DNA of 64,000 nucleotides from Exiguobacterium acetylicum (GTDB lineage Bacteria > Bacillota > Bacilli > Exiguobacteriales > Exiguobacteriaceae): contig NZ_CP082333.1 in NCBI RefSeq assembly GCF_019890935.1, positions 2,754,001 through 2,818,000 of the forward strand. The letters are read 5' to 3'. Within the stretch, counting starts at the first letter, position 1, and each line of letters starts with the position of its first letter. Of the stretch, positions 10,826 through 30,060 are shown one piece after another. The notes beneath the pieces are model-generated. The model made no database searches. It was not told the origin of the DNA and saw only the letters and a list, made by a program, of their open reading frames with translations. Position numbers and translations under genes: made by a program.

Positions 10826-11437
10826 TCACCCAATCTCCACCAGCCTTTTCCCTTGTTGTTTGATTGTTTCATCATGCGTGACAAGGATGATCGTCTTTCC
10901 TTGATCGTTCAATTCTTGTAAGAGCGCCATCACCCGCTCAGCATTCGCTTGATCGAGCGAGCCTGTCGGTTCATCCGCTAAGATAATGTCACACTGCTTC
11001 AGCATCAATCGAGCTAATGCGACCCGTTGCTGTTCCCCACCTGACAACATGAAAACTTTTTGATTGATTTTGTCATTTAACCCAACAGAAGTCAGCACTT
11101 CTTCGATCGTCTTACCCGAGCGATAGCGTTTTTGAACGATCTCGAGATTCTGTCGAACCGTTTTCTGGTCGACGAGTGCGAAGTTCTGAAACAAGAAGCC
11201 AAGCTGCGTCCGGAAGTATGCCAGTTGATTGCGCTTATTCGTGATGTCCTTTCCGTCAACGACAATTGTTCCCGTATCGATCGGCTCTAGCGCTCCAATC
11301 ATATTGAGTAGCGTTGTTTTCCCGCATCCACTCGGACCGGAAAAGATGACGAAGTCACCCTGAGAAATCGTTAACGATAGGTTTTCGAATAAGGTTTTTC
11401 CTTGAAATGATTTAGTCAGTTGTCGGATTTCAATCAT
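10826..11437 (-). CDS. ABC transporter ATPase, lactococcin-972 export type
   Basis: 203 residues. Walker A FSGPSGCGKTTLLN (about 33-46), Q-loop GFLFQNFALVDQ, signature LSGGEQQRVALARLML (about 136), Walker B CDIILADEPTGSLD and switch His LVTHDE are all intact. The size and sequence match the LolD/MacB-like ATPases grouped with putative bacteriocin export of the lactococcin 972 class. The ATG overlaps the permease stop by 4 bp (ATGA), with AAAGGGGGGA upstream. It should power the permease encoded at 11434-13386. No bacteriocin-like small gene is visible beside it, so the cargo is open; a peptide or immunity role is inferred from the family. Confidence 0.88.
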   Translation of the reverse strand: MIEIRQLTKSFQGKTLFENLSLTISQGDFVIFSGPSGCGKTTLLNMIGALEPIDTGTIVVDGKDITNKRNQLAYFRTQLGFLFQNFALVDQKTVRQNLEIVQKRYRSGKTIEEVLTSVGLNDKINQKVFMLSGGEQQRVALARLMLKQCDIILADEPTGSLDQANAERVMALLQELNDQGKTIILVTHDETIKQQGKRLVEIG

Positions 11438-13386
11438 AGATTTCCCCCCTTTAAAATGCGTTGGACATTTGCCCGTTCAATCTTTCGAATCAGCCAAATT
11501 AGCAAGACGCCTTCTGCCACTAGTAAGAGTCCTCCGCCAGCTAATAGTAGCCCGGGTGAAGAAAACTCAAGGATATAGGCAGTAAGCGCTACAGCCAGTG
11601 TACTGACAAGCGTAATTCCCATTGTTGACACGATCAGGCGTCTATTTTTCTTCCAGATGCTGTATCCCATCACCTTCTGAACCGATAACTCGATCGCATT
11701 CACTTGATACTCGAGTCGCAGCACCGTCCAGATGACAAGTAACTCCAGACTAAGAATCAGAATGACAAAGATCAGGTTCATATTCATCAATCGTTTTGCC
11801 GCTTCCCAGATGCCAAGATACTTTTCCCACGCATTCGTCTGTAAGACGAGTTCGTTCGTCATCTGTTTCTCCGCCACATAGTCTTGAAAGGCTTCTTGGT
11901 CCAGGTCATACATGACGTCAGCCAGTAAGACATTGGACAGTTGTTTTGGTGCTTTCGGTTGCTTTGCTTCATTGACGACGATGAGTAACGGATCATCGAT
12001 GAGTGTACTGCCGCTAGTAAGATTTTGATCGATCGCGACGGTCTCGAAATCTTCCTGATAGCGGACGACCGTATAGGTGTCTGCGAGATACGCCCCGAGT
12101 CCGAGTTCACGAAGTCCACTATCAATGGTCGACTTCGCTGGAATTGAAATCCCCTCTGGCGCGAAGAATGTGAGTTCATGCGCAAAGACGGAGGCACTAT
12201 TCGCAAATCGCCCGGCAACTTCATTAAATGCTGTCCGGTTCATCAAGACGGTCGGTTGATCTACCGTGAAGCTATTAACCGGGGTACTCAATGTCACTTT
12301 AAAGTCATCGTAAAAGCGTGTGTACAGTTCCGTCTGGATTCGTTCCGAGATGTCGGAACTTTTTTCATCCGAAAAGCGTGGAGAGGTTACTTTATGACCG
12401 ATGTAAGTGTACGAATAATTTTTCTTCGCTTCAAAGAACGGGCGTTGTTTATAGATCGTCACCGCTTCGGCGATGACCGTGATACTGCTCGAGAGCATCA
12501 AAATCGTCAAGAACGCTGTTACGAATTTCATGCCATATGTAAAGACAAGTAACTTATTCGACCGCTGACCGTTTGAGAACGCTTCTTTGATCGTCAAGCG
12601 TCGTAAGCGGAGATAGACCAGTCCGTTTACGACAATCAATCCAACCATCAAGCCACTGAACAGCATCAAGTACGGATCAATTGGTGTGAACAAACGGAGT
12701 ATCAAAAAGCTGACGATGAACGAAAGCAATAAAATGCCGGAGTCTATCAGAATCGAACGCGTTATCCAACGGGCTAACGATTCGCCCATCGATAGACGAA
12801 CGAGCAATTCCTTTCTGACGACAGCCAGCTCATAGAAGGTCAGTAACACGGTGATGATCGCAACAAGTGTGAATACGCCTAAGATACGGTACCGTTCTGC
12901 CGACTCGTTATAACCAGGTTGCGGATAATTCCCCGCGTATGTATCAATCAATTCCATCTTAAACGCCTTTACGGCAGAAGCTGAACCAATCCCGTAGAAG
13001 TTCGGCGTATAGGAAACGGCAGGATGTTCGGATAACGACTTGAACTGGAACGTGATATCACCGAGAAAGACACTTTGATAGATCTGTTCTTCAATCGAGC
13101 GGGAGGCAAATGCCGCTTTTACACCAGCCGTCCCGTAAATCGTCTTCGTACTCGAGAGCGTCCGATTAGGCGTCTCTTCATAGGTGAAGACATCGACCTG
13201 ATGTTTCGTCGAGGCTCGCTCGATATCTGCTAGCATCTGTTGTTCCGAAACCTTCGGATTCGGATAGATCGTCGTCGACACGAATGGTTCTGCGAATCCT
13301 TCAAGTGTCAGCATCCGACTTTCTCCAATGATGAACAGACTCGTAAACACCATCACGGTTAGAATCATTAACTTCAAGCGTTTCAT
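11434..13386 (-). CDS. bacteriocin-associated ABC permease (DUF1430-like)
   Basis: 650 residues from ATG 13386 (GGGAGGAAACCGG before it; the in-frame ATG at 13401 contains that site). The architecture is an N-terminal membrane segment, a large outer domain (about 30-165), three or four membrane helices (about 170-265), a helix at about 290, a second outer domain (about 320-515) and C-terminal helices with a VMGYSIWKKNRR loop. This duplicated FtsX-like plan is that of the DUF1430 proteins found next to lactococcin-972-type bacteriocins. With the ATPase it forms one operon and one transporter. The substrate may be a peptide acting at the envelope; this is inferred. Confidence 0.8.
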   Translation of the reverse strand: MKRLKLMILTVMVFTSLFIIGESRMLTLEGFAEPFVSTTIYPNPKVSEQQMLADIERASTKHQVDVFTYEETPNRTLSSTKTIYGTAGVKAAFASRSIEEQIYQSVFLGDITFQFKSLSEHPAVSYTPNFYGIGSASAVKAFKMELIDTYAGNYPQPGYNESAERYRILGVFTLVAIITVLLTFYELAVVRKELLVRLSMGESLARWITRSILIDSGILLLSFIVSFLILRLFTPIDPYLMLFSGLMVGLIVVNGLVYLRLRRLTIKEAFSNGQRSNKLLVFTYGMKFVTAFLTILMLSSSITVIAEAVTIYKQRPFFEAKKNYSYTYIGHKVTSPRFSDEKSSDISERIQTELYTRFYDDFKVTLSTPVNSFTVDQPTVLMNRTAFNEVAGRFANSASVFAHELTFFAPEGISIPAKSTIDSGLRELGLGAYLADTYTVVRYQEDFETVAIDQNLTSGSTLIDDPLLIVVNEAKQPKAPKQLSNVLLADVMYDLDQEAFQDYVAEKQMTNELVLQTNAWEKYLGIWEAAKRLMNMNLIFVILILSLELLVIWTVLRLEYQVNAIELSVQKVMGYSIWKKNRRLIVSTMGITLVSTLAVALTAYILEFSSPGLLLAGGGLLLVAEGVLLIWLIRKIERANVQRILKGGNL

Positions 13387-13667
13387 CCGGTTTCCTCCCA
13401 TCTTTTAGTAATACGTTCAGATTACCTTGAAACATGAATAACCAAAAGATGTAATTTTATCAAGCAATCCTACAGAATGCGTCTTTTAAAAACAATAGCC
13501 ATCTATTCCTTAAAATCAGCAGACTCGCTTCTCTTTTACAACTAGGAATCTAAGGACTATAAGCGAATTAGGAAGATTTCCTCTTTAATTATCTTTTTTC
13601 CATGACTTACTCCGTATCTTTCGATTGGTAGAACGATACTGATTTCTTTTTTTCCGAACACCCCAGC

Positions 13668-13836
13668 GGATAAGTAGAGTTATCCTGAAAGCAATCGCGC
13701 TAGAATGCGGGTTTATCTGAAGCGAATGGACGGAAGGATGGAAAATCACACGGCTTACGCTCATCGAAAGTTAAAGAAACCGTTGGCATGATTGAAGAAA
13801 TGGAGCGTTGCGCCCGGCGGATAACTCTACTTATAC
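13668..13836. repeat. 133-bp segment between inverted 18-bp recombinase-like sites
   Basis: Left site 13668-13685 GGATAAGTAGAGTTATCC and right site 13819-13836 GGATAACTCTACTTATAC are inverted copies (17 of 18 identical). Each is itself two inverted arms (GGATAA/TTATCC) around a 6-base centre, GTAGAG on the left and its reverse complement CTCTAC on the right. Arm-spacer-arm sites with opposed spacers are what a tyrosine recombinase needs for inversion, and two such enzymes are encoded just downstream. A possible -10 TATACT (13832-13837) overlaps the right site, so inversion would change its -35 context. The rest of 13387-13890 holds no clear gene. Confidence 0.5.
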
Positions 13837-13859
13837 TAAAACTACCGCGGAATACATAA

Positions 13860-13875
13860 CAGATATGCATATCTG
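13860..13875. promoter_or_regulatory. perfect 16-bp palindrome before the sigma-like gene
   Basis: CAGATATGCATATCTG, 15 bases upstream of ATG 13891. It could be an operator or a hairpin that limits access to the weak ribosome binding site of that gene. Confidence 0.4.
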
Positions 13876-13890
13876 AAGAAACGGATACCC

Positions 13891-14325
13891 ATGAACGACT
13901 TACTACGTAACTGGATTCCCCTCGTCAACTCCCTCCTGTCCCGCCTCTCGATCCACCCGAATGAACATGATGAATGCCGGCAAGCTGCCCTCCTCCGACT
14001 TTGGAAATCAATCGAAGAAGGAAAGGTCATGACCGTCACCTTCGCCCGGATCCGGGCAAAAGGGGCGATGCTAGACTACTTAGCGACCCGTAATCGAACG
14101 CTTGCGACCGAAGTCGCGGTCGAGACGATGCCGGAGCTTCCTCGGACACCGAACGTCTCCTTTCATTATCTCCTCAGCGAACTTAAACGGGATCTGTCGA
14201 ATAAAGAGTACACGTTTCTCGAAGCCTTGATGCACGGCACGGAAGAGACGCTCGGTTACTCACCGGCGCGACTCCGTTCATTGAAGTCGGAACTCCGGCA
14301 GAAAGTCCAGTTCCTTCTCGGATGA
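13891..14325 (+). CDS. small sigma-70-like protein
   Basis: 144 residues. The N-terminal half resembles sigma region 2: HDECRQAALLRLWKSIEEGK matches the ExDLxQEaxLxLWkAie pattern and FARIRAKGAMLDYL matches the FxxYAxxRIRGAMLDYLR core. The C-terminal 50 residues (LLSELKRDLSNKEYTFLEALM ... YSPARLRSLKSELRQK) are spaced like region 4 with a helix-turn-helix. It is shorter than normal sigma factors and lacks region 3. The ribosome binding site is poor. The stop overlaps the start of the recombinase gene, so the two are translationally coupled. It may direct transcription of the recombinase module, or be a DNA-binding accessory factor; I cannot tell which. Confidence 0.6.
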   Translation: MNDLLRNWIPLVNSLLSRLSIHPNEHDECRQAALLRLWKSIEEGKVMTVTFARIRAKGAMLDYLATRNRTLATEVAVETMPELPRTPNVSFHYLLSELKRDLSNKEYTFLEALMHGTEETLGYSPARLRSLKSELRQKVQFLLG

Positions 14326-15155
14326 TGACCTACTATCAAGAACGCTTACTCGCGATCATCGAACAGGCGGACTATCGTCCCTTGACGAAAAAAGCCTATC
14401 GCTCCGACGTACGGCATCTCTGTCACCATGTCGAGCGGATCGACGTCCCGTCGCTCCAACGCTATGGTAAGTTCCTACGCGACACGTACGCCCCAGCAAC
14501 TGCCGCTCGACGACTACATGCGCTCTCCATCCTGTTTGATCAATTGGTCGCGGAACGTTCACTACAGGCGAATCCGTTGGCTCGTGTCAAAAAACCGGTT
14601 CCCGCACCCTACCGACGACTTGCCTTCACGTATGACGACGTCCACCGTGTCCTTGAGACGATTCGTGATGAGACCGTCTATGCCTTTAGCTTTCTTCTCC
14701 TGCACACGGGACTAAGGTTTTCGGAAGCCCGTGACTTACAGCTCGCAGATATCGACTTTGCGCGCGATCAGTTACTCGTCCGAAGTGGTAAAGGCGATCA
14801 ATCCCGTCAGGTTCCGCTGCATCATGCATTACGTGATGTCCTGACGCGTTACATCGAGACGATTCGCCCTGATGTCCTGCCGTTGTTTTGTGAAGATAGT
14901 GGACGACCGGTCAATCCGGCAAAGTTTCGTCGTGTCCTAAAAGAAGCAAGTGAACGATGTCTCGGACGGATCCTACGACCGCATGACATCCGGGTCACGT
15001 TCGCAACGACACTTTATCACGTGCATCAGACGGATATTCTGACCATCATGCGCTTACTCGGTCACAGCGATGTCCGGACGACTCAGCACTACGTCCTACC
15101 GTCGCACGACATTGCCCATACGTCAGTCAATCGACTCAAGCGGACAGACGATTAA
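14322..15155 (+). CDS. tyrosine recombinase/integrase
   Basis: 277 residues (ATG 14322, or 14325 one codon on). The N-terminal SAM-like core-binding domain (about 5-90; LTKKAYRSDVRHLCHHVERI) is followed by the catalytic domain with Arg in HTGLRFSEARDL, Lys in VRSGKGDQSRQVPL, HDIR in RPHDIRVTFAT, LLGHSDVRTT and the nucleophile in TTQHYV. All residues of the R-K-HxxR-H-Y set are present, so the enzyme should be active. It is coupled to the sigma-like gene upstream, and its 3' end overlaps the convergent second recombinase by 20 bp. It is neither XerC nor XerD by context. It probably acts on the inverted sites at 13668-13836 (inference). Confidence 0.88.
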   Translation: MMTYYQERLLAIIEQADYRPLTKKAYRSDVRHLCHHVERIDVPSLQRYGKFLRDTYAPATAARRLHALSILFDQLVAERSLQANPLARVKKPVPAPYRRLAFTYDDVHRVLETIRDETVYAFSFLLLHTGLRFSEARDLQLADIDFARDQLLVRSGKGDQSRQVPLHHALRDVLTRYIETIRPDVLPLFCEDSGRPVNPAKFRRVLKEASERCLGRILRPHDIRVTFATTLYHVHQTDILTIMRLLGHSDVRTTQHYVLPSHDIAHTSVNRLKRTDD

Positions 15156-15954
15156 GAACGTCCCGGACGTGATTCGTCTGGCTACGGATGTATCCTTCCG
15201 TCGTCGAGATGCTGGCGTGACCAAGCAGACGCTTTATATCGAGCAACTTCAACCCTGCCTGCTGATAAAGATAGGTCGCATAGGCGATCCGGAGCATATG
15301 CGGACGGACGTGACGCTTCAAGGACGTAAATCCAACCTCGCGAAGTGCCTTCCTTGCCGCATGTTCATTGATCATCCGTCCCGTGACGGACTGAAACAAG
15401 TAGCCGGTCGTGCGACCTGTAAGAAACAGACTAATCTTGTCGCAAAGGGTCACTCCGATTGGAACGGTCCGTGTCCGCCCACCTTTCCCGTGACGAACAT
15501 ACAGTTCATTCTTCGCTAAATCAAAATCCTGCACCGTCAACAAACGGGCCTCCATGAAGCGGAGGCCCGTTTGGCTGAGCACCTCGAAGAAGAGGCGATA
15601 GGTTGGATCTTGAATCTGTCGAATCACGGGGATCAACTGTTCACTATCATAATAGGTCTCATCTTGGAGACGTTGATGGACGATCGGACGGATCTCGACC
15701 ATCGGATTCTTTTTGATCCGTCGTCGCTCAACGAGGACATTTCCGAGCCGGTGTAAGGCATGATACCGTCGCAGGATCGTCGACGGCTTATAATGTGCTT
15801 TCATCCAGTGAAAGTAGCGTCGTAAGGACGTGACTGACCAATCGATTTGATGCAAACGCATTTGCCGAAGATCACTCCGGTATGCCTTGATCGTATGGGC
15901 TGCCCGCGAGAAATCGTTCAATAAATACTGATCGAGATAGTCATAGTGGGTCAT
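15136..15954 (-). CDS. tyrosine recombinase/integrase, convergent with its homologue
   Basis: 272 residues from ATG 15954, chosen for AAGGAGGA 7 bases upstream (an in-frame start at 16029 lacks one). Core-binding domain about 1-95 (AHTIKAYRSDLRQMRLHQIDW), catalytic residues in SQTGLRFMEARLL, VRHGKGGRTRTVPI, RPHMLRIAYATYLY, LLGHASISTT and TTEGYI. It is homologous to the recombinase at 14322-15155 over its whole length, especially in the catalytic blocks, but is transcribed towards it. Pairs of this kind can form heterotetramers, as XerC and XerD do; that is an inference here. Confidence 0.88.
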   Translation of the reverse strand: MTHYDYLDQYLLNDFSRAAHTIKAYRSDLRQMRLHQIDWSVTSLRRYFHWMKAHYKPSTILRRYHALHRLGNVLVERRRIKKNPMVEIRPIVHQRLQDETYYDSEQLIPVIRQIQDPTYRLFFEVLSQTGLRFMEARLLTVQDFDLAKNELYVRHGKGGRTRTVPIGVTLCDKISLFLTGRTTGYLFQSVTGRMINEHAARKALREVGFTSLKRHVRPHMLRIAYATYLYQQAGLKLLDIKRLLGHASISTTEGYIRSQTNHVRDVLNRLSA

Positions 15955-16634: not shown

Positions 16635-16770
16635 TCAATACGCTTTGATGTTTCCTCACCTGCGGATGTTATTTGAAAAAAATGTATATGATTGAATGAA
16701 AAAGGGTATCTAGATTACACCTTTACCATTCGATTAAACATTCCACTCTGCCGAGGTGACTCCATCCATC

Positions 16771-19101
16771 ATGCCAAACCATACGATGCATGCTCATACT
16801 GACTTTTTACTTGTTACGTTATCTTATCTGATTGCCGCAACATCCGCTTACATCGCAATTGAACTCGCGGGACGCGTCAAAACAGCGACCGATCGCTCGA
16901 AACATCTTTGGTTGATTGCCGGTGGCTCGATTTTAGGTCTCGGCATTTGGTCGATGCATTTCGTCGCGATGCTTGGTCACGGTACCTTGAAGGATGCGAC
17001 CTACTCGTTCCCGCTCGTCTTTCTATCGGTTCTCATCGCGATGACGGGATGTATCCTTGGCTTTTATCTCGTCGCCCGTCGCATGTCCCGTGAATCGTTC
17101 GTTCTTGGTGGTTTTTTGATGGGAAGTGCGATTGCTGGCATGCATTATGTCGGGATCACCGCTTTACAGGGAATGACCCTGCAGTATCATACAGGATATG
17201 TGTTGCTCTCGATCTTGATTGCGATTGCTGCTTCTTGGACCGCACTCTGGATCGGTTTCTTTTCGCGTTACGCAAAGCAACAGATGTTGGTACAAACGAA
17301 AGTCTTCTTTGCTCTCATCATGGGCATCGCGATCTCCGGAATGCATCATGTTGGGATGCTCGGCTTAGAGTTTCAGATGATTCCATCGTTCACGAGCAAT
17401 CAAGTCATCGAACCAGCGATGCTGTTGACACTTGTCTCAATCGTCACGCTCTTTTTGTTCATCGTTTTCTTCGCTTCCGTCTTGTTTGACCTCCAGTTAC
17501 GTAAACGTGACTTCATCCAAGCGACGATTCTTGAATCAACCGAAGATGGTGTCGTGACGACGAATCCTGACGGTCTGATCCAATATGCAAACTCGCTGTT
17601 CCATGATTTTTTCCCGGAACGTCACTCATACTTAACGGAACATGACGTAGCCTTACGTCTTGATGTGCCCGATCTTACGAAACAGATGCTACACGTCGAC
17701 GAACGTATCCTTGAAGTCGTCAATCACCCGCTAAAAGGCGAGAACTTGAATCAGACACTGTGGTTCTTCCGCAACGTCACCGATCAAGTCTCGTCCCAGC
17801 AACAACTCGAACACCTTGCCTTTCATGACCGGTTGACGGATTTACCGAATCGAGACAAGATTACACTCTTTATCGAGGAACAGATCAGACAAGCGATTCC
17901 GATTTCGTGTCTCGCGCTCAGTATGGATCGTTGGCGTTCTCTCAGTGATATGCTCGGACATAAAGGCGTCGAGAGTCTGTTGCTGCAAATTGCAGAGCGT
18001 CTGCAAGCGACGATTCACGCCCGTGATGTCCTAGCACGCCTTGATTCATCCGAATTCCTCGTTCTCCTCAGTGACGAGCGGAGTCAGCTGGCGACACAAA
18101 AAGCCGAGAAGTGTTACGCTGCCCTATCGCAACCATTTGATATCGATGGAACGGTCATTACGCTGACGATGCGCGCCGGGATCAGTCATTACCCGGAAGA
18201 CGCCACAACAGCAGAAGAACTGATTGAGTATGCGAAACTGGCACTACATGCTTCGTTTACTGAAGCGCAAAACACGATCAAGGAATTTAAGGTCGAGAAT
18301 CGAAACGATATCTTACGGACCGTCCAGATTGAAAAATTCATGACGGAGGCACTCGAAGCAGAAGCCTTTGAGCTCGTCTATCAACCAAAGATTGCAGTAG
18401 TTACGGAACGAATGACCGGTGTTGAAGTGTTGGCACGCTGGACGCATGATGAGCTTGGCTTCGTCTCACCAGCCGAGTTCATTCCCGTCGCTGAAAATAC
18501 GGGAGCAATTCATGCCTTAGGTGACTGGGTGTTACGTACTGCTTGCCTACGCTGGGTCGCGTGGCAAGACCAAGTACTGGAACCATTCTCGATTGCCGTT
18601 AACGTTTCCCCACTTCAGTTCGCGAGTCAAAAATTCTTACGTCGCGTCGAAACGATTCTCGCAGAGACAGGAATGAATCCCGCATACCTGGAGCTCGAAA
18701 TCACGGAGTCCGCCGCCTTATCGTATGAGACGGCTATCTATGAAAAATTAGCACGACTACAGGAACTCGGTATTCAGGTTTCCCTCGACGACTTCGGTAC
18801 TGGTTACTCGTCCTTTAAACAACTTCGTTCATTACCGATTCAGTTATTGAAGATTGACCGTTCATTTATCAGTTCGTTATTTGACGGTAAGAATCAACAA
18901 GCAATCGTCCAATCGATGATTCAACTTGGACATAATCTCGAGATGGAGGTGTTAATTGAAGGAGTAGAAACGTCGGAGCAGGCAGATTGGCTCGCGCAAG
19001 AAGGCTGTGATTATTTCCAGGGCTATTATTTTAGTCGACCGTTAAAAGAAGAAGATCTGTTTGAATATTTAAATCTATTACGATCGAGCGGAAGCGCCTA
19101 A
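16771..19101 (+). CDS. MHYT-GGDEF-EAL c-di-GMP signalling protein
   Basis: 776 residues from ATG 16771 (GAGGTGA upstream; GTG 16756 also in frame). The N-terminus has seven membrane helices with repeated SMHFV, GMHYV and GMHHV motifs, the MHYT sensor thought to bind metal, oxygen, NO or CO. A short PAS-like linker (about 250-350) follows. The GGDEF domain is degenerate: the signature reads LDSSEF, so cyclase activity is unlikely. The EAL domain reads EVLAR where EAL is usual, and keeps EITESAAL, DDFGTGYSSF, LKIDRSFI and IEGVETSEQ, so phosphodiesterase activity is likely. It should lower c-di-GMP in response to a small ligand and so affect surface or motility functions. It forms a single transcription unit with a terminator at 19171. 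Confidence 0.9.
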   Translation: MPNHTMHAHTDFLLVTLSYLIAATSAYIAIELAGRVKTATDRSKHLWLIAGGSILGLGIWSMHFVAMLGHGTLKDATYSFPLVFLSVLIAMTGCILGFYLVARRMSRESFVLGGFLMGSAIAGMHYVGITALQGMTLQYHTGYVLLSILIAIAASWTALWIGFFSRYAKQQMLVQTKVFFALIMGIAISGMHHVGMLGLEFQMIPSFTSNQVIEPAMLLTLVSIVTLFLFIVFFASVLFDLQLRKRDFIQATILESTEDGVVTTNPDGLIQYANSLFHDFFPERHSYLTEHDVALRLDVPDLTKQMLHVDERILEVVNHPLKGENLNQTLWFFRNVTDQVSSQQQLEHLAFHDRLTDLPNRDKITLFIEEQIRQAIPISCLALSMDRWRSLSDMLGHKGVESLLLQIAERLQATIHARDVLARLDSSEFLVLLSDERSQLATQKAEKCYAALSQPFDIDGTVITLTMRAGISHYPEDATTAEELIEYAKLALHASFTEAQNTIKEFKVENRNDILRTVQIEKFMTEALEAEAFELVYQPKIAVVTERMTGVEVLARWTHDELGFVSPAEFIPVAENTGAIHALGDWVLRTACLRWVAWQDQVLEPFSIAVNVSPLQFASQKFLRRVETILAETGMNPAYLELEITESAALSYETAIYEKLARLQELGIQVSLDDFGTGYSSFKQLRSLPIQLLKIDRSFISSLFDGKNQQAIVQSMIQLGHNLEMEVLIEGVETSEQADWLAQEGCDYFQGYYFSRPLKEEDLFEYLNLLRSSGSA

Positions 19102-20118: not shown

Positions 20119-21285
20119 TTAATCTCTACTATACAAATCCCGTGTATAAACTTTCTCTTCCACATCACTCAACTCTGGATGCATGCGGTTCGAAAGAATT
20201 ATATCCGATTCTTGCTTGAACGCTTCAATGTCACGAATGACACGTGAGTTGTAGAACGTATCTTCCGTCAAGACCGGTTCGAAGACAGTCACTTCAATTC
20301 CTTTTGCCTTGATCCGTTTCATGATACCTTGGATTGATGACGCACGGAAGTTGTCCGAATCCGTTTTCATCGTCAGGCGATATACACCTACGACTTTCGG
20401 ATTTTGTTTGATGATTGTATCCGCGATATAGTCTTTCCGTGTCCGATTCGCTTCAACGATTGCACCGATAATGTTGTTCGGAACATCCTCATAGTTCGCA
20501 AGTAGCTGCTTTGTATCTTTCGGTAAGCAGTATCCACCGTATCCAAACGACGGATTATTGTAATGGCTACCAATACGGCTATCAAGACCAACACCTTCAA
20601 TGATCTGTTTAGAATCCAGGCTTCTGACTTCTGCATATGTATCGAGTTCATTGAAGAAAGCGACACGCATCGCAAGATAGGTATTCGAGAAGAGCTTGAT
20701 CGCTTCAGCTTCCGTAGAGTCCGTCAATAAGACAGGAACATCTTTCTTTACTGCTCCTTGTAGTAACAAGTCTGCAAATTGCTGCGCACGTTCTGATCGT
20801 TCCCCAACGACGATACGCGAAGGATAGAGATTGTCATGCAATGCTTGCCCTTCACGCAAAAACTCTGGTGAGAAGACGATATTCGGCGTATCGAACTTTT
20901 CTTTCAACTCTTGTGTATAACCGACTGGTACCGTCGACTTGATGATCATCGTCGCATCTGGATTAATCGCAAGTACTGTTGCGACGACACTCTCAACCGT
21001 ACGCGTATTGAAGTAGTTCCGTGTTGGATCGTAATCTGTCGGCGTTGCGATGACGACGAATTCTGCTTCTTTGTAGGCTTCGAAGTTATCTGTCGTCGCG
21101 TGTAAGTTCAATTCCTTATGTTGAAGGAATTTTTCAATTTCTGCGTCAACGATTGGTGATTTACGGTTGTTGACCATTTCGACCCGTTCTTTAATAATAT
21201 CGATTGATGTGACTTCATTATGTTGTGCGAGTAATACGGCCATTGATAGACCAACGTATCCTGTTCCTGCTACTGTGATTTTCAT
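20119..21285 (-). CDS. ugd: UDP-glucose/nucleotide-sugar 6-dehydrogenase
   Basis: 388 residues. NAD-binding [13 protein letters not shown] at 8-20, the substrate-handling PEFLREG (about 145), and the catalytic Cys in [14 protein letters not shown] (about 259). It is the length of the short Ugd class (about 390). It oxidises UDP-glucose (or a related sugar) to the uronate for capsule or exopolysaccharide units. Last gene of the cluster; its ATG overlaps the Wzx stop by 4 bp. A second, longer dehydrogenase of the same family is encoded at 49056-50297, so this one is probably devoted to the polymer made here. Its base composition is that of the conserved genes rather than the AT-rich core. Confidence 0.92.
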
Positions 21286-22694
21286 TTATTTACCACCTTA
21301 CGTTTTTTTAAAGTACACAAAATATCAATTTTATTGTCCAACAACACATATACCAGTACATAGAGTAAAGATGCAACAATTACGACGATGAGTACTTCCA
21401 TGTAATTTGAATACATATACGGGATAGTTAGCTTTAAAAATACCCACAAAATTAAACTACTAGGAATTACAATTAATGAGTCTTTAAAGTAGTTCTTTAT
21501 CTCTATGATTTCTTTGACAAAGTATGTTTGAAGCAACATTACTATCGATTCTGTTATGATTGCAGTGTATACAGCACCCATTGCTCCAAATTGTGGAATT
21601 AAAAATATGTTTAAAAGCACACTAAATAATGCTCCTATTAAAATAGAAATCATATAAAATTTATCCATATTTCTTGGTAATAAAATTTGAGTTCTAATGA
21701 CATTTGCCCAAGCAATAATTACTCCGACTGGAACAAGAATTTCTATTAGTTCACTAACGTATGCATAGTTATTTCCTAGATACAAAGAAATAAAATATGG
21801 TGAAATCGTGTAGATACCCACACTTAGACCAAATGCAATAAAAATACTGAACTTCATAGATTTTCTAATTATTTTATCAATGTCATTCTTATTTTTATTT
21901 AAATTCATTTTTGACATTTTAGGCATCATTACTACACCTAATGATGCTATTATAGTTGTCTGTACTAAGTTAAATTGCAATGCTGTTGAATAAAATCCTA
22001 ATTGAGTAACATTTGAAAAAGTAGCCAACATTATTTTATCTAGCAATTTATAAATACTTATAGATATTACTGGAACAAATAAAATGATTGATCCTTTTAA
22101 ATGTTTTTTAAAGAAACCTTTATTAAATTTCAATATAGGTTTTTCAACTTCTTTAAGTAGTCTTGGCCACATTATTAAATTACTTAACAATGTACCTGAT
22201 GACATTATAAAAATATACTTGTCTAAATCATTTGTATTTTTCACCAATAAATATACCAATAACAAAGTTAACAACTTTATAAACGTATTTCTAATTACTA
22301 TCATTTTAAAATATTGCTTGCCTACAAAATACCAATTAACATCAAATAAAGCTGATATAAACAAAGGTACTTGAAAAATTAAATAATTTTTGTACTTTAT
22401 ATCAATAAAAGTAATTATAACGAACAATAATAATGATAAAAAAACAAAAGAAACTAATTGAACCAAATATATCTCCCAAAATTCATTACGTGTAGATTGT
22501 GCTATTTTTCGGCTTCCATAAATATTCATCCCTAACAGAGTAAAAAGAACAAAGTAGCTAATTATTGAAAAAGTGTAGTTGTATATACCAATACCTTTAA
22601 TCCCTATTGTTTGTGTCAAATAAGGAATTAAAATTAAGGGAACAATTAAAATTAAAATTTGATAAACTAAGTTATATAAATAATTTTTTTTCAT
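21282..22694 (-). CDS. wzx: Wzx-type oligosaccharide flippase
   Basis: 470 residues with about 12-14 hydrophobic helices along the whole length and the usual N-terminus of the polysaccharide-transport MATE/MOP family ([21 protein letters not shown]). Such proteins flip undecaprenyl-diphosphate-linked repeat units across the membrane. It overlaps Wzy upstream and Ugd downstream by 4 bp each, which places it in the middle of one operon. It is very AT-rich, like the other core genes and unlike the flanks, as is common for exchangeable serotype cores. Confidence 0.85.
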
Positions 22695-23878
22695 ATACAG
22701 TTGGAATTCCTTTCCCTTTCTGATTCTTTCATAATGTTAACAGTTATAATCCCTAAAAAAGTAACATATAAATAAAAGAAAGGGGTATTTCTTAGCAGTT
22801 GAAATTCAAAATATTGAGAAGCCATTGTTGCCAATACAATTCCTAAAATTGAGTTCAACCAATAATTTTTATCAATTTGATTCAATTGAGTTTTATATTT
22901 AAAAAATTGTAATAGTGGTTTAAATAATAAATATAGACCTATAACAAGCCAAATTAATCCACCTTCAACTAGTAACCCTATATAAGTATTGTGCCAACTG
23001 TTGAACCAAGGCATTCCAAACGAAGCAAGAATATAACCTGTCGTTCCATATCCATGCCCTTCTAAATTTATAATACTCTTACCTAATTCGAACAACTGAA
23101 ATCTTCTATCAATCTCAATTCCTCTACTACCTATTACAACAATTAAAACAGTTGTCACACCTAAACTATATAATGCGAATACAGTGATTTTTTTTATTAA
23201 GCTGGTTCTTTTTTGAATAAAAGTAGTCAGTGCAATCACAGTTATCCCAATACCCATCATTAGTATTGATCCTCGTGAAAAGGTACCAATAATTATAAGT
23301 ATATATATAAAAATATATGGAAGGCTTCGCATGACTTTTTGTTCTCGTATTTGATTGTTTATCATTAGTATAAAAATAAACGCTGTTAACATTCCTAACT
23401 GATTACTGTTATCAAACATTCCCTTAAGTCGTTCATTTTCCAAGGTGAAAATACTATTTATAGAAAAAATTAAAAAAACAAACAAAAAAGTTTTAAAAGT
23501 CACATTTGTAAACTCATTTACAGATATTTTTTTACCTATTTCTATAGAAATGAATAGTACTAAAATTGATGGGATTATTAAATTAATAGATGCTCCTAAA
23601 GTTTGCGCTTTTTGTATACTCCAAAATGAAGTTATCAATGAAAAAGTTATGAGAATGGAAAATGTAAATATAAATTTATTAAAAGTGTCATCCTTTATTA
23701 ATATTTTTTTTAATAGCACAAGTAATAAAGAAAAACTTATACAACTTAAAAATATAATTAAATTTATATTTTTGTTTTCTGTAAGAGAACTACTGTGAAA
23801 CATTATTGCGATAATTAAAAATATGAGCGCTATTTTATATGTTTTTGCTTTAGTTTCCATGTGTTTTTTGGTATTCAT
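22691..23878 (-). CDS. wzy: Wzy-type polymerase / O-antigen ligase family
   Basis: 395 residues from ATG 23878 (GGAGAG upstream; the in-frame ATG at 23890 is part of that site). About 11-12 membrane helices, with a larger outer loop near residue 260-300 containing GHGYGTTGYIL and WFNSWHNTYIGLLVEGG; the HNxxL...GxxG pattern is that of the Wzy_C/O-antigen ligase family. It would polymerise lipid-linked repeat units on the outer face. It overlaps the upstream glycosyltransferase by 29 bp and Wzx by 4 bp. Confidence 0.82.
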   Translation of the reverse strand: MNTKKHMETKAKTYKIALIFLIIAIMFHSSSLTENKNINLIIFLSCISFSLLLVLLKKILIKDDTFNKFIFTFSILITFSLITSFWSIQKAQTLGASINLIIPSILVLFISIEIGKKISVNEFTNVTFKTFLFVFLIFSINSIFTLENERLKGMFDNSNQLGMLTAFIFILMINNQIREQKVMRSLPYIFIYILIIIGTFSRGSILMMGIGITVIALTTFIQKRTSLIKKITVFALYSLGVTTVLIVVIGSRGIEIDRRFQLFELGKSIINLEGHGYGTTGYILASFGMPWFNSWHNTYIGLLVEGGLIWLVIGLYLLFKPLLQFFKYKTQLNQIDKNYWLNSILGIVLATMASQYFEFQLLRNTPFFYLYVTFLGIITVNIMKESERERNSNCI

Positions 23879-24758
23879 AGTACTCTCCATTTATCAAGCC
23901 ATAAAGATTACCTTTAATTTTATTTATATTTATCAAAAAATCAATTTTTCTTTTTTTATTCTTAGAAAAGTAACGAGTCAACATTACAGGAATAGCAATT
24001 ATTCTAAGAGTTATTATTACGATTCTTTTAAGCACACCCTTAAATCCAAATAAGTCTTTTTCTATTAAGGCAGCTGTATAACCAGTTCTAAATGCTCGAT
24101 TTAAAATCCATTGACCGTTCGCCCTAGATAAAGGGATTTTCTCAAACACTTCAGCATCTTTTACATATAAAAGTTCGCTTCCTTCTCTTAATAATCTTAT
24201 TTTTAAATGAGTATCGCTTCCACCAGTCAAAGCATATTTTTTATCTAGAGGATAATCCATATGCTTAATCTTATTAATACTAAATAGAGCGTTTGCAGTT
24301 AAGGGAGCTTTAGGTTTGTGATAGTAAGTACTATTTTTTATCCATAATGGTGGAGTCTCTTCAAAAACAGGAGTAACACTTCCTAAAATTATTTTTTCTG
24401 GATTAGTCATATAATTTCTTATCATTATTTCAATCCAATTATCTTTTATTGTTTCATCATCATCTAAAAAAGCAATGACTTCACATTTCTCATTTATTGC
24501 TTCTTTAATTGATCGATTCCGTGCAAAAGAAATACCTCTATTTTTTTCATGAAAATATTTAATTTTGATTTGATTATTACGCTTTTTAAAATTTTCAATT
24601 ATGTTCAAAGCACTTTTGTCTGGATCATTATCTACTACAATAATACCTAAATTTGTATTTACTGGAATTGTAGCATTATATATTGAATCCAAAAGATCTG
24701 TAAGATAGTTTTTCCTTTTGTAAGTACAAATACAAATTTCTAAATTGATTTTTAACAT
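23850..24758 (-). CDS. GT2 family glycosyltransferase
   Basis: 302 residues. GT-A fold: EICICTYKRKNYLTDLL at the start, VVDNDPDKSA (first Asp motif), GISFARNRSIKEA, then the metal-binding AFLDDDET (about 95) and a C-terminal region with a short hydrophobic stretch (RIVIITLRIIAIPVML) that may dip into the membrane. It adds a sugar to the lipid-linked repeat unit; donor and acceptor cannot be read from sequence. Very AT-rich. Confidence 0.85.
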   Translation of the reverse strand: MLKINLEICICTYKRKNYLTDLLDSIYNATIPVNTNLGIIVVDNDPDKSALNIIENFKKRNNQIKIKYFHEKNRGISFARNRSIKEAINEKCEVIAFLDDDETIKDNWIEIMIRNYMTNPEKIILGSVTPVFEETPPLWIKNSTYYHKPKAPLTANALFSINKIKHMDYPLDKKYALTGGSDTHLKIRLLREGSELLYVKDAEVFEKIPLSRANGQWILNRAFRTGYTAALIEKDLFGFKGVLKRIVIITLRIIAIPVMLTRYFSKNKKRKIDFLININKIKGNLYGLINGEYYEYQKTHGN

Positions 24759-24780
24759 ATAAGTTCACCCTTATTTTTTA

Positions 24781-25716
24781 TTAAAATATTTTCAGTCTAA
24801 TTCCATAAACAATTTTAAGAATACTGTGAGGCATTAAAGATGCAACATATAGACCAAATTTGTAAGGTACATTTTTTTTACGACAATCCCATTCTTTTAT
24901 TATTTCCCGAGCTTTCAATCTATCGCCAGATAAACACATAGTATATATGTATGCAATCATTTTAAAATCGAATTTACTTTTTATATTTGATAATTCTTTT
25001 TTGCTTCTGGAAGAATTATTAATTTCTTCTTTTAAAACTTCCATATAAGCAGGAGCGTAGGCTAATTTTATTCGAGTACGAGCATTATTTTCGGCCATTC
25101 TATTATAAGTAACACAAACTTTTTCAGTAAAAGCAACACGACTATTGATTCTCGCCAATTTCGAAAAGAAATGCAAATCTTGCCCTATATTTTCACCAGG
25201 CTTAAATAGACCAGATTCTTTGAGTGCTCTTTTTCTTACAGTGGTTGCAGATGTCCAAACAAACTCGTATTTATTATTAATTTCTGACCAATAATTAGAA
25301 ATGCCATATTTATTGGATTCTAAATTTCCTTTGGAATAATTAACTTTATTATTTGGTAGATCTACTTTATATGCAGTAACGAAAATATCAGATTCATTAA
25401 ACATCATTGTTAATTTATTTATTTCATGCAAATAATCATGGTTCCATAAATCATCCGCATCTAAAAAACAAATAAATTCACCGCTCGATTTATTTATACC
25501 TAAATTTCTAGCAACAGACACTCCAGAATTCTTTTGCTCAAATATTTTTATTCTGTTATCACTAAAAGTATTGACTAACTCTAATCCGTCATCAGTCGAT
25601 CCATCATCAACAATTATTAATTCAAAATCCTCAAATGATTGCTGTATAACACTCGAAATAGTCTCTTTAATATGATTCCTTTTATTGTACAAAGGAATTA
25701 TTACTGAAAATTTCAT
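24781..25716 (-). CDS. GT2 family glycosyltransferase
   Basis: 311 residues from ATG 25716, after AGGTGAG. Motifs: FSVIIPLYNKRNHIKETISS, IVDDGSTDDGLEL, GVSVARNLGINKSSGEF and FLDADDLWNHDYL (DAD metal site at about 90). A C-terminal helical part is typical of EpsE/EpsH-like transferases. It is the second sugar transferase of the cluster, so the repeat unit has at least three sugars if the initiating transferase and both GT2 enzymes each add one (inference). Confidence 0.87.
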   Translation of the reverse strand: MKFSVIIPLYNKRNHIKETISSVIQQSFEDFELIIVDDGSTDDGLELVNTFSDNRIKIFEQKNSGVSVARNLGINKSSGEFICFLDADDLWNHDYLHEINKLTMMFNESDIFVTAYKVDLPNNKVNYSKGNLESNKYGISNYWSEINNKYEFVWTSATTVRKRALKESGLFKPGENIGQDLHFFSKLARINSRVAFTEKVCVTYNRMAENNARTRIKLAYAPAYMEVLKEEINNSSRSKKELSNIKSKFDFKMIAYIYTMCLSGDRLKAREIIKEWDCRKKNVPYKFGLYVASLMPHSILKIVYGIRLKIF

Positions 25717-25725
25717 TAATCTCAC

Positions 25726-26589
25726 CTATTCTAATGTTCTTTTTATTTTTTTGTTTAATGACAAATTTAGGAATTCTTTATTGTTAGATTCAAAATTTTC
25801 ATCAATTTCTATTATCAAGTTTCCAAAAATTTTACTTAAAATAGGCAGCTTGACAAGTTTATTTTTTAAAAAAATCGGTATATAAATAAAATTTATTTTT
25901 GTTCTTTTAATTTTACTAAAAATCAGGATAATTTCTTTGGTACTATAGTAGTGTAAACTTTGAGGAAAGCTCAATCCTTTAACATCAAACAACACATACT
26001 GAACAAGATACTCACAAAATTCTTCAATGTATATCATACTTCTTTGATTATCAATATTAAGAAAAAATCTTGTTTTATAAACCATGTTTAGTAGTTTAAT
26101 TAGATTTCCTGGAGCATCTTTTCCAAATATCATAGGTGGTCTTACTATTAGAACTTTAAAATCTTCATTTACCAATTGTTTAATATTTTTTTCACCGAGT
26201 AGCTTAGATTTACCATATAAACTTTTAGGAAGTAATGGTGTATTTTCTTTTATTACACCAGTATCTAAACCATAAACTGCAATGCTACTAATATAAATAA
26301 ACTGACCAACTTTTTCTTTCTTAGCTTTTTTAGCAATTTCGTATGGAAGTTCACTATTAATACGATAATATAATTGTGTATTCTGTTTTCTTTCGTTTAA
26401 ATGAACGATTGATGCTAAATAGATAATTGAATGGAACACAGAAAAGTCAATGTTTCTCCATGTTTCATCTCTTACACTAATCATTTTTAAATCAATACTT
26501 TGGTTGTATCTTGTATCAACTAATGATCTGAAATTTTTCCCGACATATGAATTTTCTCCAATTACCAATACTTTTTTCAAAAATTTCAC
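25726..26589 (-). CDS. NAD-dependent epimerase/dehydratase (extended SDR)
   Basis: 287 residues. Nucleotide-binding VLVIGENSYVGKNF (the usual GxxGxxG is GENSYVG), IYISSIAVYG (catalytic Ser region), and the YxxxK active site in SLYGKSKLLGE. The later part carries RPPMIFGKDAPGNLIKLL, as in UDP-GlcNAc/UDP-glucose 4-epimerase relatives such as WbpP/WbnF-like or dTDP-hexose reductases; the exact substrate is open. It lies directly after the initiating sugar transferase (4-bp overlap), suggesting it supplies or reduces the sugar that is transferred first. Confidence 0.8.
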   Translation of the reverse strand: MKFLKKVLVIGENSYVGKNFRSLVDTRYNQSIDLKMISVRDETWRNIDFSVFHSIIYLASIVHLNERKQNTQLYYRINSELPYEIAKKAKKEKVGQFIYISSIAVYGLDTGVIKENTPLLPKSLYGKSKLLGEKNIKQLVNEDFKVLIVRPPMIFGKDAPGNLIKLLNMVYKTRFFLNIDNQRSMIYIEEFCEYLVQYVLFDVKGLSFPQSLHYYSTKEIILIFSKIKRTKINFIYIPIFLKNKLVKLPILSKIFGNLIIEIDENFESNNKEFLNLSLNKKIKRTLE

Positions 26590-27203
26590 CTCTTAGTATT
26601 GATATTTTGTTTAAGAGAAGGACCCCCTTCAGATACTCCTTCACTTTTTATTACACTTATTGCCGTTGAAAAAATACACTTACAGTCTACCCAAAAATTT
26701 ATATTTTTCATGTACTCACCATCTAATTTTGCTTTTGAGTAAATATCTAATTCATCTCGTCCACTTATTTGTGCCCAGCCAGTTAGACCTGGTAGTGTAT
26801 TGTTTGCACCGTACTTATCTCGTTCATCAATCAAATCAAATTGATTCCACAATGCCGGTCTTGGTCCAACAAAACTCATCTCACCTTTAATAATATTAAA
26901 TAGTTGAGGTAACTCATCTAAACTTGTTTTACGTAGTACTTTACCAACGCGTGTGATGTAGACATCTGGATCAGCCAGCAAATGGGTAGGCATATCTTTT
27001 GGTGTTTCAATATACATTGTCCGGAACTTTAAAATATTAAAGTGACTTTTATTTAAGCCCACCCGCTTTTGCTTGAAAAAAATAGGTCCCTTTGATTCAA
27101 GTTTGATCGCTACCATAATTAAAAAAAATACTGGAATTAATATGATACACGTTATTAATGCCAACATAAATCCTAACAACCGCTTAAACATCATATAACT
27201 CAT
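26586..27203 (-). CDS. initiating sugar-phosphate transferase (WcaJ/EpsL-like)
   Basis: 205 residues; ATG 27203 with AAGGAG 9 bases upstream. One N-terminal membrane segment (LLGFMLALITCIILIPVFFL), then the bacterial sugar transferase core: FFKQKRVGLN, FNILKFRTM, RVGKVLRKTSLDELPQLFNIIKGEMSFVGPRPAL in parts, and LPGLTGWAQISGRDELD. It is the short form without the extra membrane domain of WbaP. It moves a sugar-1-phosphate onto undecaprenyl phosphate to start the repeat unit. Confidence 0.9.
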   Translation of the reverse strand: MSYMMFKRLLGFMLALITCIILIPVFFLIMVAIKLESKGPIFFKQKRVGLNKSHFNILKFRTMYIETPKDMPTHLLADPDVYITRVGKVLRKTSLDELPQLFNIIKGEMSFVGPRPALWNQFDLIDERDKYGANNTLPGLTGWAQISGRDELDIYSKAKLDGEYMKNINFWVDCKCIFSTAISVIKSEGVSEGGPSLKQNINTKR

Positions 27204-27222
27204 CCACTTTAGCTCCTTATGT

Positions 27223-29073
27223 CTATACCAATTTTTGTTTTACAATGGCTACATCGTTTGCAATGTCGAGTAAGATATTTCGTAACTGCACCGGATTGAG
27301 CTGATTATTTTCAACCATTCGCAAAATTTCTTCAATCGGTTCTGCTTGTTTCGTTCGACCTACGAAAATCTTCGGATAAATCGCTTCTGGATCGACTTCT
27401 CCGTCTTTTAGTAACTCTTCGTACATCTTTTCTCCTGGTCGAATGCCCGAAAATACAATTGGCATCTCATCTTCTGTGAAGCCACTCAACTCAATCATAT
27501 TTTTCGCAAGATCAACGATTTTAACAGGTTCCCCCATATCGAGAACAAAGACTTCGCCACCGTCAGCTAAAATACCCGCTTGGATGACCAAACGACTTGC
27601 TTCTGGAATCGTCATGAAGAATCGAGTCATCTCTGGATGAGTGACTGTTACAGGTCCACCCGCTTCGATTTGTGATTTAAAGAGTGGGATGACCGATCCC
27701 CGACTACCAAGAACGTTACCAAAACGAACTACTGCGAACTTCGTCCGACTCCGTTTCCCTAGATCCTGGATAATCATCTCGGCAATACGTTTCGTTGAAC
27801 CCATGACGTTCGTCGGGTTGACTGCTTTATCCGTCGAGATCATTACGAACCGCTCAACCTCATGACGATCAGCTACCTCCGCTACATTTTTTGTACCATA
27901 AACATTATTTTTCACAGACTCGTATGGATTTGCTTCCATTAAAGGAACGTGTTTATGAGCTGCTGCGTGGAAGACGACATCCGGACGATATTGTGCAAAC
28001 ACTTCTTCAAGTCGCATCCGATCTTGTACATCCGCGATAACAGGAATCAAATTGATTGCTGTCTGTAAACCACGTAGTTCTCGTTCAATTAAATAGATAC
28101 TATTCTCACCATGACCGAGTAGTAACAATGTCGTAGGATTGAACTGAATGATTTGGCGACAGATTTCTGATCCAATCGACCCGCCAGCTCCTGTGACGAG
28201 AACCGTCCGTCTCTCAATCTCACTACGAATTCCTGAGATATTCAGTTCGACTGCTTCTCGCCCGAGCAAGTCTTCAATTGAGACATCTCGAATCGCATTA
28301 ACCGAGATTTTTCCAGTCACGAGTTCTTCAATCATTGGTAACGTCTGGACGTTTTTACAAAGTGTCTTCGCTTCTGTTATTAATTCAATTCGTCGTTGTT
28401 GCGACAACGATGGAATCGCTAAAACGATTGCTTCGATTTTATATCGTTCGATGACGGCTTTTAGATCTTCCGTCGTACCTGCGACTTCAAGTCCTTGAAT
28501 CACAAAGTGCATATGCTTCGGATCGTCATCAATGAATGCTACTGGCTTCAATTCGTGAAATGGTGATGCATAGAGTTGACGAACCAATGCTCGCCCAGCA
28601 CGCCCTGCTCCGATGACCAACGTTCGCTTACGCGATTTGATCATGCGCCTTGGTAGAGCATACTTCCGCCAGTGCTGACCAATCCCAAGTAGACGTAATC
28701 CGACTCGAATCGCTCCGAGTAACAATAATGAAATACAAAAACTTAATAGCGTGATACGTTCTAAAACTTGTCCGAAGAATAGAACTTGATACACTATTAA
28801 GCCGATTGAGCTCAACGCAAGGGACAATGACAACGTCATGGCCTCTTGCACACTCGCATATTTCCAATTGACACGATATAACTTCATTAAGAAAGCCAGC
28901 GTGATGAAGAGTAAAGCAAATACTGCAGCGGACTGAACTAGTGCACGACTGTCAATCAATGAAAATAATTCCTTCGGATACAAGAAAAAATATGTAAAGC
29001 TCATTGCTACAATCAATGCGAACGCATCCATACATGCTAATAAAAAGGTCCGATAGTAATAGTACTTCTTCAA
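27223..29073 (-). CDS. membrane UDP-GlcNAc 4,6-dehydratase-type protein (CapD/EpsC/PglF family)
   Basis: 616 residues. The start is taken as TTG 29073, 8 bases after AAAGGAG; the longer frame begins at TTG 29091 before that site. Four N-terminal membrane helices (about 10-120), a first Rossmann CoA-binding-like domain (VIGAGRAGRALVRQL, about 160), then the dehydratase with VTGAGGSIGSEICRQ (about 290), VFHAAAHKHVPLME and STDKAVNPTNVMGSTKR in parts. In this family the active-site Tyr is replaced, here by Met in VMGSTK, as in CapD and FlaA1 relatives. It would make a 4-keto-6-deoxy sugar nucleotide for the polymer. The neighbours are galU and the initiating transferase. Confidence 0.9.
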   Translation of the reverse strand: MKKYYYYRTFLLACMDAFALIVAMSFTYFFLYPKELFSLIDSRALVQSAAVFALLFITLAFLMKLYRVNWKYASVQEAMTLSLSLALSSIGLIVYQVLFFGQVLERITLLSFCISLLLLGAIRVGLRLLGIGQHWRKYALPRRMIKSRKRTLVIGAGRAGRALVRQLYASPFHELKPVAFIDDDPKHMHFVIQGLEVAGTTEDLKAVIERYKIEAIVLAIPSLSQQRRIELITEAKTLCKNVQTLPMIEELVTGKISVNAIRDVSIEDLLGREAVELNISGIRSEIERRTVLVTGAGGSIGSEICRQIIQFNPTTLLLLGHGENSIYLIERELRGLQTAINLIPVIADVQDRMRLEEVFAQYRPDVVFHAAAHKHVPLMEANPYESVKNNVYGTKNVAEVADRHEVERFVMISTDKAVNPTNVMGSTKRIAEMIIQDLGKRSRTKFAVVRFGNVLGSRGSVIPLFKSQIEAGGPVTVTHPEMTRFFMTIPEASRLVIQAGILADGGEVFVLDMGEPVKIVDLAKNMIELSGFTEDEMPIVFSGIRPGEKMYEELLKDGEVDPEAIYPKIFVGRTKQAEPIEEILRMVENNQLNPVQLRNILLDIANDVAIVKQKLV

Positions 29074-29113
29074 GAGGACAACTCCTTTCAACTAATATTT
29101 AAAATGCTATTTT

Positions 29114-30001
29114 TTAAACAAGCGATTGTTCTTTATGAGCTTCAAGTAGCTCTTGCATGATTTCTGCGACGTCTTGACCTAAATCTTTACGATTCAATGC
29201 AAACTCAAGTGTTGTCCGAATGAATCCTAGTTTTTCACCGACATCATACCGTTTACCATCAAACTCGTAGGCAAAGACACGTTGCATCTCGTTGAGTCGT
29301 GTAATCGCATCCGTCAATTGAATTTCGCCACCTGAGCCGACCTGTTGTGTTTCGAGATACTTAAAGATTTCTGGTGTGAGTAGATAACGTCCTAAGATCG
29401 CTAAGTTCGATGGTGCAGTTCCCGGTGCTGGCTTCTCAACGAATGATTTTACCTTATGTAATTGTTCTGAGATGCTCGTACTTGGATCAACGATGCCGTA
29501 ACGATTCGTATCTTTTTCCGGAACTGGCTGTACACCGATGATTGAACTATTCGTGATTTCATATTGCTCGATTAATTGTCGTGTACACGGTATGTCTGCT
29601 TGAACGATATCATCACCCAGCATGACGACGAATGGTTCGTTCCCGATAAATGCTTTTGCTTGAAGAATCGCATCCCCTAAACCTTTGGGTTTCGATTGAC
29701 GAATGAAGTGGATATTGATATTCGTCGTTGCTTCAACAAGATATAACAATTCCGATTTATTTTTTGAAATCAGGTTTGCCTCGAGCTCTGGTACAGAATC
29801 AAAATGATCTTCGATCGCACGTTTCCCTTTACCGGTGATGATTAAGATATCTTCAATTCCTGATTCAATTGCTTCTTCAATGATGTATTGAATCGTCGGT
29901 TTATCGACGATTGGTAACATTTCCTTTGGCATCGCTTTTGTCGCCGGTAAAAAACGTGTACCAAGACCTGCTGCTGGAATGACTGCTTTTTTTACTCTCA
30001 T
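29114..30001 (-). CDS. galU: UTP-glucose-1-phosphate uridylyltransferase
   Basis: 295 residues from ATG 30001; upstream GAGGAG is 11 bases away (an in-frame TTG at 30031 precedes it). The N-terminal nucleotidyltransferase signature [25 protein letters not shown] is complete apart from spacing, shown in two pieces: [15 protein letters not shown] and [19 protein letters not shown] and [15 protein letters not shown] follow. It makes UDP-glucose, the substrate of both Ugd enzymes in the window. It is the first gene after an internal terminator and has its own promoter and a perfect cre site. Confidence 0.93.
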
Positions 30002-30060
30002 TACGAAATACACTCCTCTATCAAGTTTCAAGATGGCAAATTATATTTTTCATTCCATTC

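Follow-up and report, generated by a model that had tools for sequence, protein, structure and literature searches.

Does a short intergenic segment beside two tyrosine recombinases act as an invertible DNA switch in Exiguobacterium acetylicum, and which genes would it control? The segment lies within the window, the whole stretch of 64,000 nucleotides analyzed here. The original prediction described inverted 18-bp sites with opposed centers around 133 bp, and their positions and pairing are confirmed. The left recombination site, GGATAA-GTAGAG-TTATCC, occupies positions 13668-13685 on the plus strand; its 14-bp core is the same in all 18 close relatives. The right site, GGATAA-CTCTAC-TTATAC, occupies positions 13819-13836 on the minus strand, its core opposed to that of the left site. 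The 133-bp segment between them (13686-13818) is in the orientation that we call '+' in this genome. The site arms are complementary at 17 of 18 positions, and 13670-13685 pairs perfectly with 13819-13834. The 64-kb window has no other perfect 16-bp inverted repeat with arms 20-400 bp apart, and none of this kind arose when the window was simulated 60 times with a first-order Markov model. The sites share the plan ATAA-N6-TTAT, a Xer/dif-like core.

A genome search finds the segment as a single copy in the 3.39-Mb genome. The sites do not belong to a dispersed repeat, which was one way in which the prediction might have failed. No second site pair was found elsewhere in this genome. The 14-bp core has one further exact match, on contig C2 (L093, around 1501) beside small peptide ORFs. 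We considered it as a further real site and judged it a chance occurrence; it falls in AT-rich, ABC-transporter-gene-like sequence. Outside the left site, the motif TTCCGAACA (13652-13660) contains CGAACA in 19 of 19 own-genus loci and is possibly an outer protein-binding site.

We find that the segment has flipped repeatedly in evolution, which, on the comparison of genomes, is our central result. The relatives form two genus-level groups: g1, with 19 genomes including this one, and g2, with 18 genomes plus G061. In a genus-wide search, two g1 genomes (G001 and G018) match the minus strand of the segment exactly from arm to arm, with both flanks matching the plus strand. We then compared 39 segments (from 37 genomes, plus two E. 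alkaliphilum loci) in 741 pairs, using a score threshold of 60; the top shuffled score was 35.5. Of these pairs, 63 match unflipped, 60 match only when flipped, and 618 are below threshold, with no conflicts. The best flipped pairs include 140/145 identical positions (G018/G016), 135/145 (G001/G000), and 112/116 (G022/G029).

Both orientations occur in all five clusters with at least three members. The cluster counts of '+' and '-' are 4/2, 9/3, 4/3, 3/5, and 2/1, where the labels are comparable only inside one cluster, except that those of the g1 clusters, g1-I and g1-II, were joined by a separate comparison; three further segments stand alone. Within g1, 13 genomes are '+' and five are '-' (G001, G018, G006, G017, and G008); G007 is left without a call, its two orientations being nearly tied (17 versus 14). 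Parsimony on trees of the downstream DNA, which are small and midpoint-rooted and in which the three-member cluster counts as one, requires at least nine inversions. Thus, the predicted inversion holds in several relatives relative to both flanks, and the outcome that would have spoken against it, a single orientation in all strains, is not what we see among the species. Three E. alkaliphilum contigs carry the locus, but because all are identical over 8420 bases they are uninformative on inversion within a strain. The E. alkaliphilum 12/1 assembly, the only one with several copies, has these three locus contigs (L143-L145) and a differing one, L130. Contamination is 8% in G061, which is probably this assembly too, and the assembly is perhaps a mixed one.

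The switch architecture is conserved throughout the family. The gene directly downstream, encoding a small sigma-like protein, is present in 37 of the 61 genomes searched (19/19 in g1, 18/18 in g2, and 0/24 from other families). An inverted repeat lies upstream of it in all 37 and in the two E. alkaliphilum loci; the same arrangement is therefore found wherever the gene is, though site sequences differ between groups. The 27 loci with relatives among GTDB genomes all belong to Exiguobacterium (e.g., E. sibiricum, E. antarcticum, E. profundum, and E. aurantiacum). Across the 39 loci, the right-hand repeat begins 72-87 bp before the sigma-like start codon, and the best 18-bp repeat scores 14-17 of 18. 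Shuffled sequences score 11-14, and since seven of 120 reach 14, the two loci with this score rest on position and inversion rather than on the score.

In 18 g1 genomes the sites share the core ATAAGTAGAGTTAT, which is slightly different in G007, and the g2 cores are quite different (e.g., ATAATGGTTGTTAT). The inverted repeat is kept although cores differ between groups, and the two arms must therefore have changed together. Among 153 close pairs, the site core is identical in every pair (mean 1.00) versus 67% for the segment between. Between g1-I and g1-II, the cores are likewise 100% identical and the segments 59%, as expected if recombinases hold the sites constant.

Beyond the family, the sigma alignment weakly matched 37 of 360 genomes. 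We retrieved 15 of these 37 loci and recovered the sigma relative as an ORF in 13 (it is missing in L175 and L179); relatives of the two recombinases were not found beside it in the 15 stretches of 3.9-7.5 kb. A link to phages was also considered and dropped: neither the sigma alignment nor the right-flank pattern brought up any relative among viral contigs.

The sigma-like gene (13891-14325, plus strand) encodes 144 amino acids. Its product matches Sigma70_r2 (region 2) above the Pfam cut-off, and 22 of 22 aligned members carry this domain; the second domain, the candidate for a DNA-binding region 4, has no Pfam match. The predicted structure has two helical domains (mean pLDDT 86, pTM 0.48). 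Sigma factors make up most of the best listed Foldseek matches, none of which has an E value of 0.001 or better. In VIA-align comparisons, residues 1-84 align to gp55 with Z 8.6 (rmsd 3.1, 82 aligned), and residues 87-144 alone align to CnrH in one row (Z 6.4, rmsd 2.8, 58 aligned). Over residues 1-144, scores against sigma factors are middling (Z 6-8); those for FliA-type factors are about 7-8 with an rmsd above 10 Å, as would follow from a different placement of the two domains. A sequence profile search reaches FliA at E 0.0003. By domain match and predicted fold, the protein is thus a member of the sigma-70 family, and we infer that it has sigma activity.

Two complete tyrosine recombinases were predicted to adjoin the switch, and both are intact. 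The first, which we call XerA (14322-15155, plus strand), overlaps the sigma-like gene by 4 bp. The second, XerB (15136-15948, minus strand), is convergent and found in this genus only, where it lies beside the switch in every genome except G007. Both match Phage_integrase (PF00589) above the Pfam cut-off, and each has the R...HxxR...H...Y motif. Their best NCBIfam matches are XerC, XerA, and XerD models, at scores far below the equivalog cut-offs (about 108 bits at best versus 220-335, XerC having 335). By these cut-offs the two proteins are Xer-like, yet not equivalogs of XerC, XerD, or XerA.

A close relative of XerA (56-100% identity) lies beside the sigma-like gene in 18 of 19 g1 genomes, and G007 has a 37% relative. 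In g2 (without G020), every locus in which the gene after the sigma gene is visible has a single recombinase there, the sigma gene itself being unlabelled in G025 and G021. Because of this position and conservation, the neighboring recombinases presumably do the flipping. A conserved promoter was sought for XerB, and its upstream regions differ between groups. In G008, where the segment is in '-', XerB is split by an insert with ORFs of 238 and 522 amino acids (L115, 8999-11280), perhaps an insertion sequence.

What would the segment control? A promoter appears to be divided between it and its right flank. As predicted, a -10-like TATACT (13832-13837, plus strand) overlaps the right site, by five bases, and it sits on the fixed outer edge of that site. 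This place holds TATACT or TATGCT in 39 of 39 loci scored, and TATACT in 19 of 19 own-genus loci. The putative -35, TTGCGC (13808-13813, plus strand), is inside the segment, 18 bp from the -10. With the segments of the 18 close relatives aligned in '+', a TTG stands 18 bp from TATACT in every one, in the pattern AAAG.T.A..AAaCCGTTGGCA.gATT.AA.AAA.......TTG......G.GGATAACTCTACTTATACT.AAACTACCGCGGAATAC. The -35 is TTGAAA (the form in most relatives) or TTGAAG in the 12 g1-II segments, and TTGCGC or TTGCAT in the six g1-I segments, including this one. Upstream of the promoter in '+', the segment also carries a conserved box, AAACCGTTGGCATGATTGAA (13777-13796, plus strand), a block in the 18 aligned segments. 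Thus, all 18 close relatives have the -10 in fixed DNA and the -35 TTG and box in the segment, and only '+' joins them. The box may be an activator site or a recombination enhancer, and we suspect that it compensates for the poor -35 of this genome.

Orientation '+' is therefore the likely ON state on these motifs, with promoter activity presumably switched by orientation. Scored with weights of our own choosing, flipped g1-II segments offer no comparable -35, and flipped g1-I segments offer TTGCTT at 16 bp in three of six genomes, almost as good as in '+'. In g2, '+' outscores '-' at 17 of the 18 clustered loci and one prefers '-'; this preference is weak, because all -35 candidates score low and the '+' label is set per cluster. 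A consensus promoter scan of 13402-13960 gave no match above threshold versus 1.2 expected in shuffles.

Two palindromes follow the -10, CCGCGG (13845-13850) and GATATGCATATC (13862-13873). Such a pair is seen in every group: CCGCGG or CCTAGG, the latter in most sister-genus loci, and then, at the place of the second, ATGCAT, GCGCGC, or AGCGCT types. The leader at 13845-13873 is thus a candidate for a conserved operator or other leader feature.

The original prediction left open whether the sigma-like and recombinase genes or the genes to the left respond to inversion. The right-hand gene is the sigma-like gene in 37 of 37 genomes, and among 18 loci compared, the left neighbors differ in family and direction. 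Because the left-hand genes vary, we favor the first part of that claim and not the second: the likely output, as judged from gene order, is the sigma-recombinase operon.

We weighed several other explanations. Opposite orientations might be assembly errors at short inverted repeats, and some of the genomes are indeed drafts in tens of contigs. However, flipped copies occur in near-complete assemblies (one contig in G018, three in G001, and two in G017) and in five separate clusters, and ordinary reads exceed the 16-21 bp of the repeats, so we regard this as extremely improbable. Nor is it at all probable that the inverted repeat serves mainly as a long stem in a structured RNA or in single-stranded DNA, with inversion incidental. 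The arms do change together between groups, and the plus strand folds somewhat more stably than shuffles (z -2.1), but there is no Rfam match at the gathering threshold or at E 5, the arms fit a recombinase site plan and adjoin recombinases, and a sequence-specific RNA could hardly tolerate repeated flipping.

Two further readings accept the inversion and differ in its effect. A promoter further left might read through the segment, with one orientation allowing read-through or a stable leader. Such control after initiation has a precedent in a C. difficile tyrosine-recombinase switch of similar size, according to the portion of that study used here (PMC5386303). The weak match of the promoter in our genome, two weak terminator-like hairpins in the segment, and the palindromes that follow in the leader also fit. 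Against this, the left flank is only 44% identical over 70 bp, so that the relatives show no common promoter there; the -10 and the -35 TTG keep a fixed spacing in 18 of 18 relatives; and the hairpins are little above chance (two versus 0.6 in shuffles). We think this reading unlikely. Alternatively, the switch might mainly drive the genes to the left, here the ABC transporter at 10826-13401. When flipped, the -35 and upstream box do point left, where minus-strand genes start about 270 bp away. This is decidedly improbable, given that the left neighbors vary in family and direction and that the left site has no conserved -10 at its mirror position.

The locus has the structural features of an inverton: inverted repeats around a short intergenic segment that occurs, among genomes, in either orientation while its flanks stay the same. 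We conclude that it is very probably an invertible promoter switch, that is, a phase-variation element, flipped by recombinase, in which '+' joins a promoter for the sigma-recombinase operon. One or both Xer-like recombinases would exchange strands in the 6-bp cores of the inverted dif-like sites and so flip the 133 bp. The -10 would stay at the edge of the right site, and the -35 and upstream box would travel with the segment. In '+', the orientation of this assembly, the pieces would join, and the promoter would transcribe the small sigma factor and the overlapping recombinase gene. In '-', the -35 and box would point away, leaving the operon silent or weakly expressed. Since recombinase would be among the products of the ON state, that state would promote its own exit; both this feedback and the identity of the acting enzyme are read from the arrangement of the genes.

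Our search for a regulon centered on the neighboring genes and on shared motifs. A Wzx/Wzy-type surface polysaccharide operon (20119-32388, minus strand) is found some 4 kb downstream of the switch. Polysaccharide-gene relatives with at least 60% identity occur downstream of the module in 20 of 36 genomes (11/19 in g1 and 9/17 in g2), a count that stands without a genome-wide baseline for such genes. It covers the window and 35 retrieved stretches, some of them short (3.4 kb in G032 and 5.7 kb in G006), with G020 left out. The g1 stretches without a relative are those of G001, G016, G002, G015, G004, G012, G007, and G006. Shared synteny is no proof of regulation.

No target promoter motif was found for the sigma factor. 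As a regulon motif, the box has one exact copy genome-wide, none with one or two mismatches, and 14 places with three versus eight for a reversed control; the leader motif has 42 further places versus 97 for its control. A role as a competence sigma factor was not supported, there being by eye no switch-like motif upstream of the probable comGA, an ORF of about 282 amino acids below the family cut-off, in 18 of 19 own-genus genomes (without G001).

Other neighbors are recorded here. To the left, a bacteriocin-export-type ABC transporter (10826-13401, minus strand) matches lactococcin 972 and bact_immun_7tm models below cut-off; G016 and G011 have its permease fragmented into several ORFs. An MHYT-GGDEF-EAL cyclic-di-GMP protein (16756-19101, plus strand) beside the module is two ORFs in G001. 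Further downstream (34857-38444, minus strand) is a run of secreted-looking proteins of 228-249 amino acids, apparently tandem paralogues.

A broader proposal can be made only tentatively, and we would sooner doubt it than adopt it: the locus could be an ancient, family-wide, self-limiting flip-flop, in which sigma factor and recombinase are made in one orientation and reprogram surface polysaccharide or another surface trait in some cells, with site and recombinase changing together and the architecture staying constant. A sigma factor heading a flip switch would mean that one DNA inversion could change a whole gene set. Conservation in 37 of 37 genomes with changing sites also makes it possible to study, in environmental bacteria, how specific recombinases are for their sites and how cell-to-cell diversity is controlled.

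Invertible promoters as such are already known. In the open-licence literature, we came across no case in which a small sigma factor and its own recombinase switch together family-wide with site turnover and, by title, no study of such a switch or of phase variation in Exiguobacterium. Inversion switches appear to be rare in the class Bacilli, to go by the part of one survey used here, which has a single Bacilli signature among 22 samples (PMC5903667).

Several known systems resemble parts of this locus. The small alternative sigma factor SigH of S. aureus is described as switching on, reversibly, in few cells, and its gene, sigH, is preceded by an inverted repeat (PMC3486894). The likeness lies in these features. 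The systems differ in that the sigH DNA change is a rare tandem duplication and gene fusion and its inverted repeat is reported to act post-transcriptionally (PMC3486894), with no recombinase-driven inversion in the portion of the description used here. The Xer/dif dimer system shares with our locus its site plan and Xer-like proteins. Its dif site has the plan ATAA-N6-TTAT. The Exiguobacterium proteins differ by scoring far below the equivalog cut-offs (e.g., 108 versus 335 bits for XerC), and the sites differ by being inverted and adjoining a regulatory gene. The E. coli fim switch has two recombinase genes, encoding FimB and FimE, beside its invertible segment, and FimE expression depends on orientation. 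Recombinase genes alongside an invertible segment are thus common to both, but the output of fim is fimbriae, and orientation-dependent recombinase expression in Exiguobacterium is our inference. The fimS segment is given as 314 bp (PMC9993118).

Among the systems compared, the nearest known case, on the part of its description used here, is the flg switch of C. difficile. There, the tyrosine recombinase RecV inverts 154 bp between 21-bp repeats upstream of an operon that includes sigD, with control after transcription initiation; RecV also controls the cwpV switch, likewise post-initiation (PMC5386303). Both flg and our locus combine a tyrosine recombinase, a segment of about 150 bp, inverted repeats of about 20 bp, and a sigma gene in the downstream operon. 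They differ in that sigD is one gene within a flagellar operon, whereas here a small, stand-alone sigma gene comes first, with its own overlapping recombinase gene. In our locus the putative promoter elements are also split across a site, and the genome yielded no second pair of sites. Compared with flg as so described, the Exiguobacterium switch is distinguished by being kept across a family while its sites turn over.
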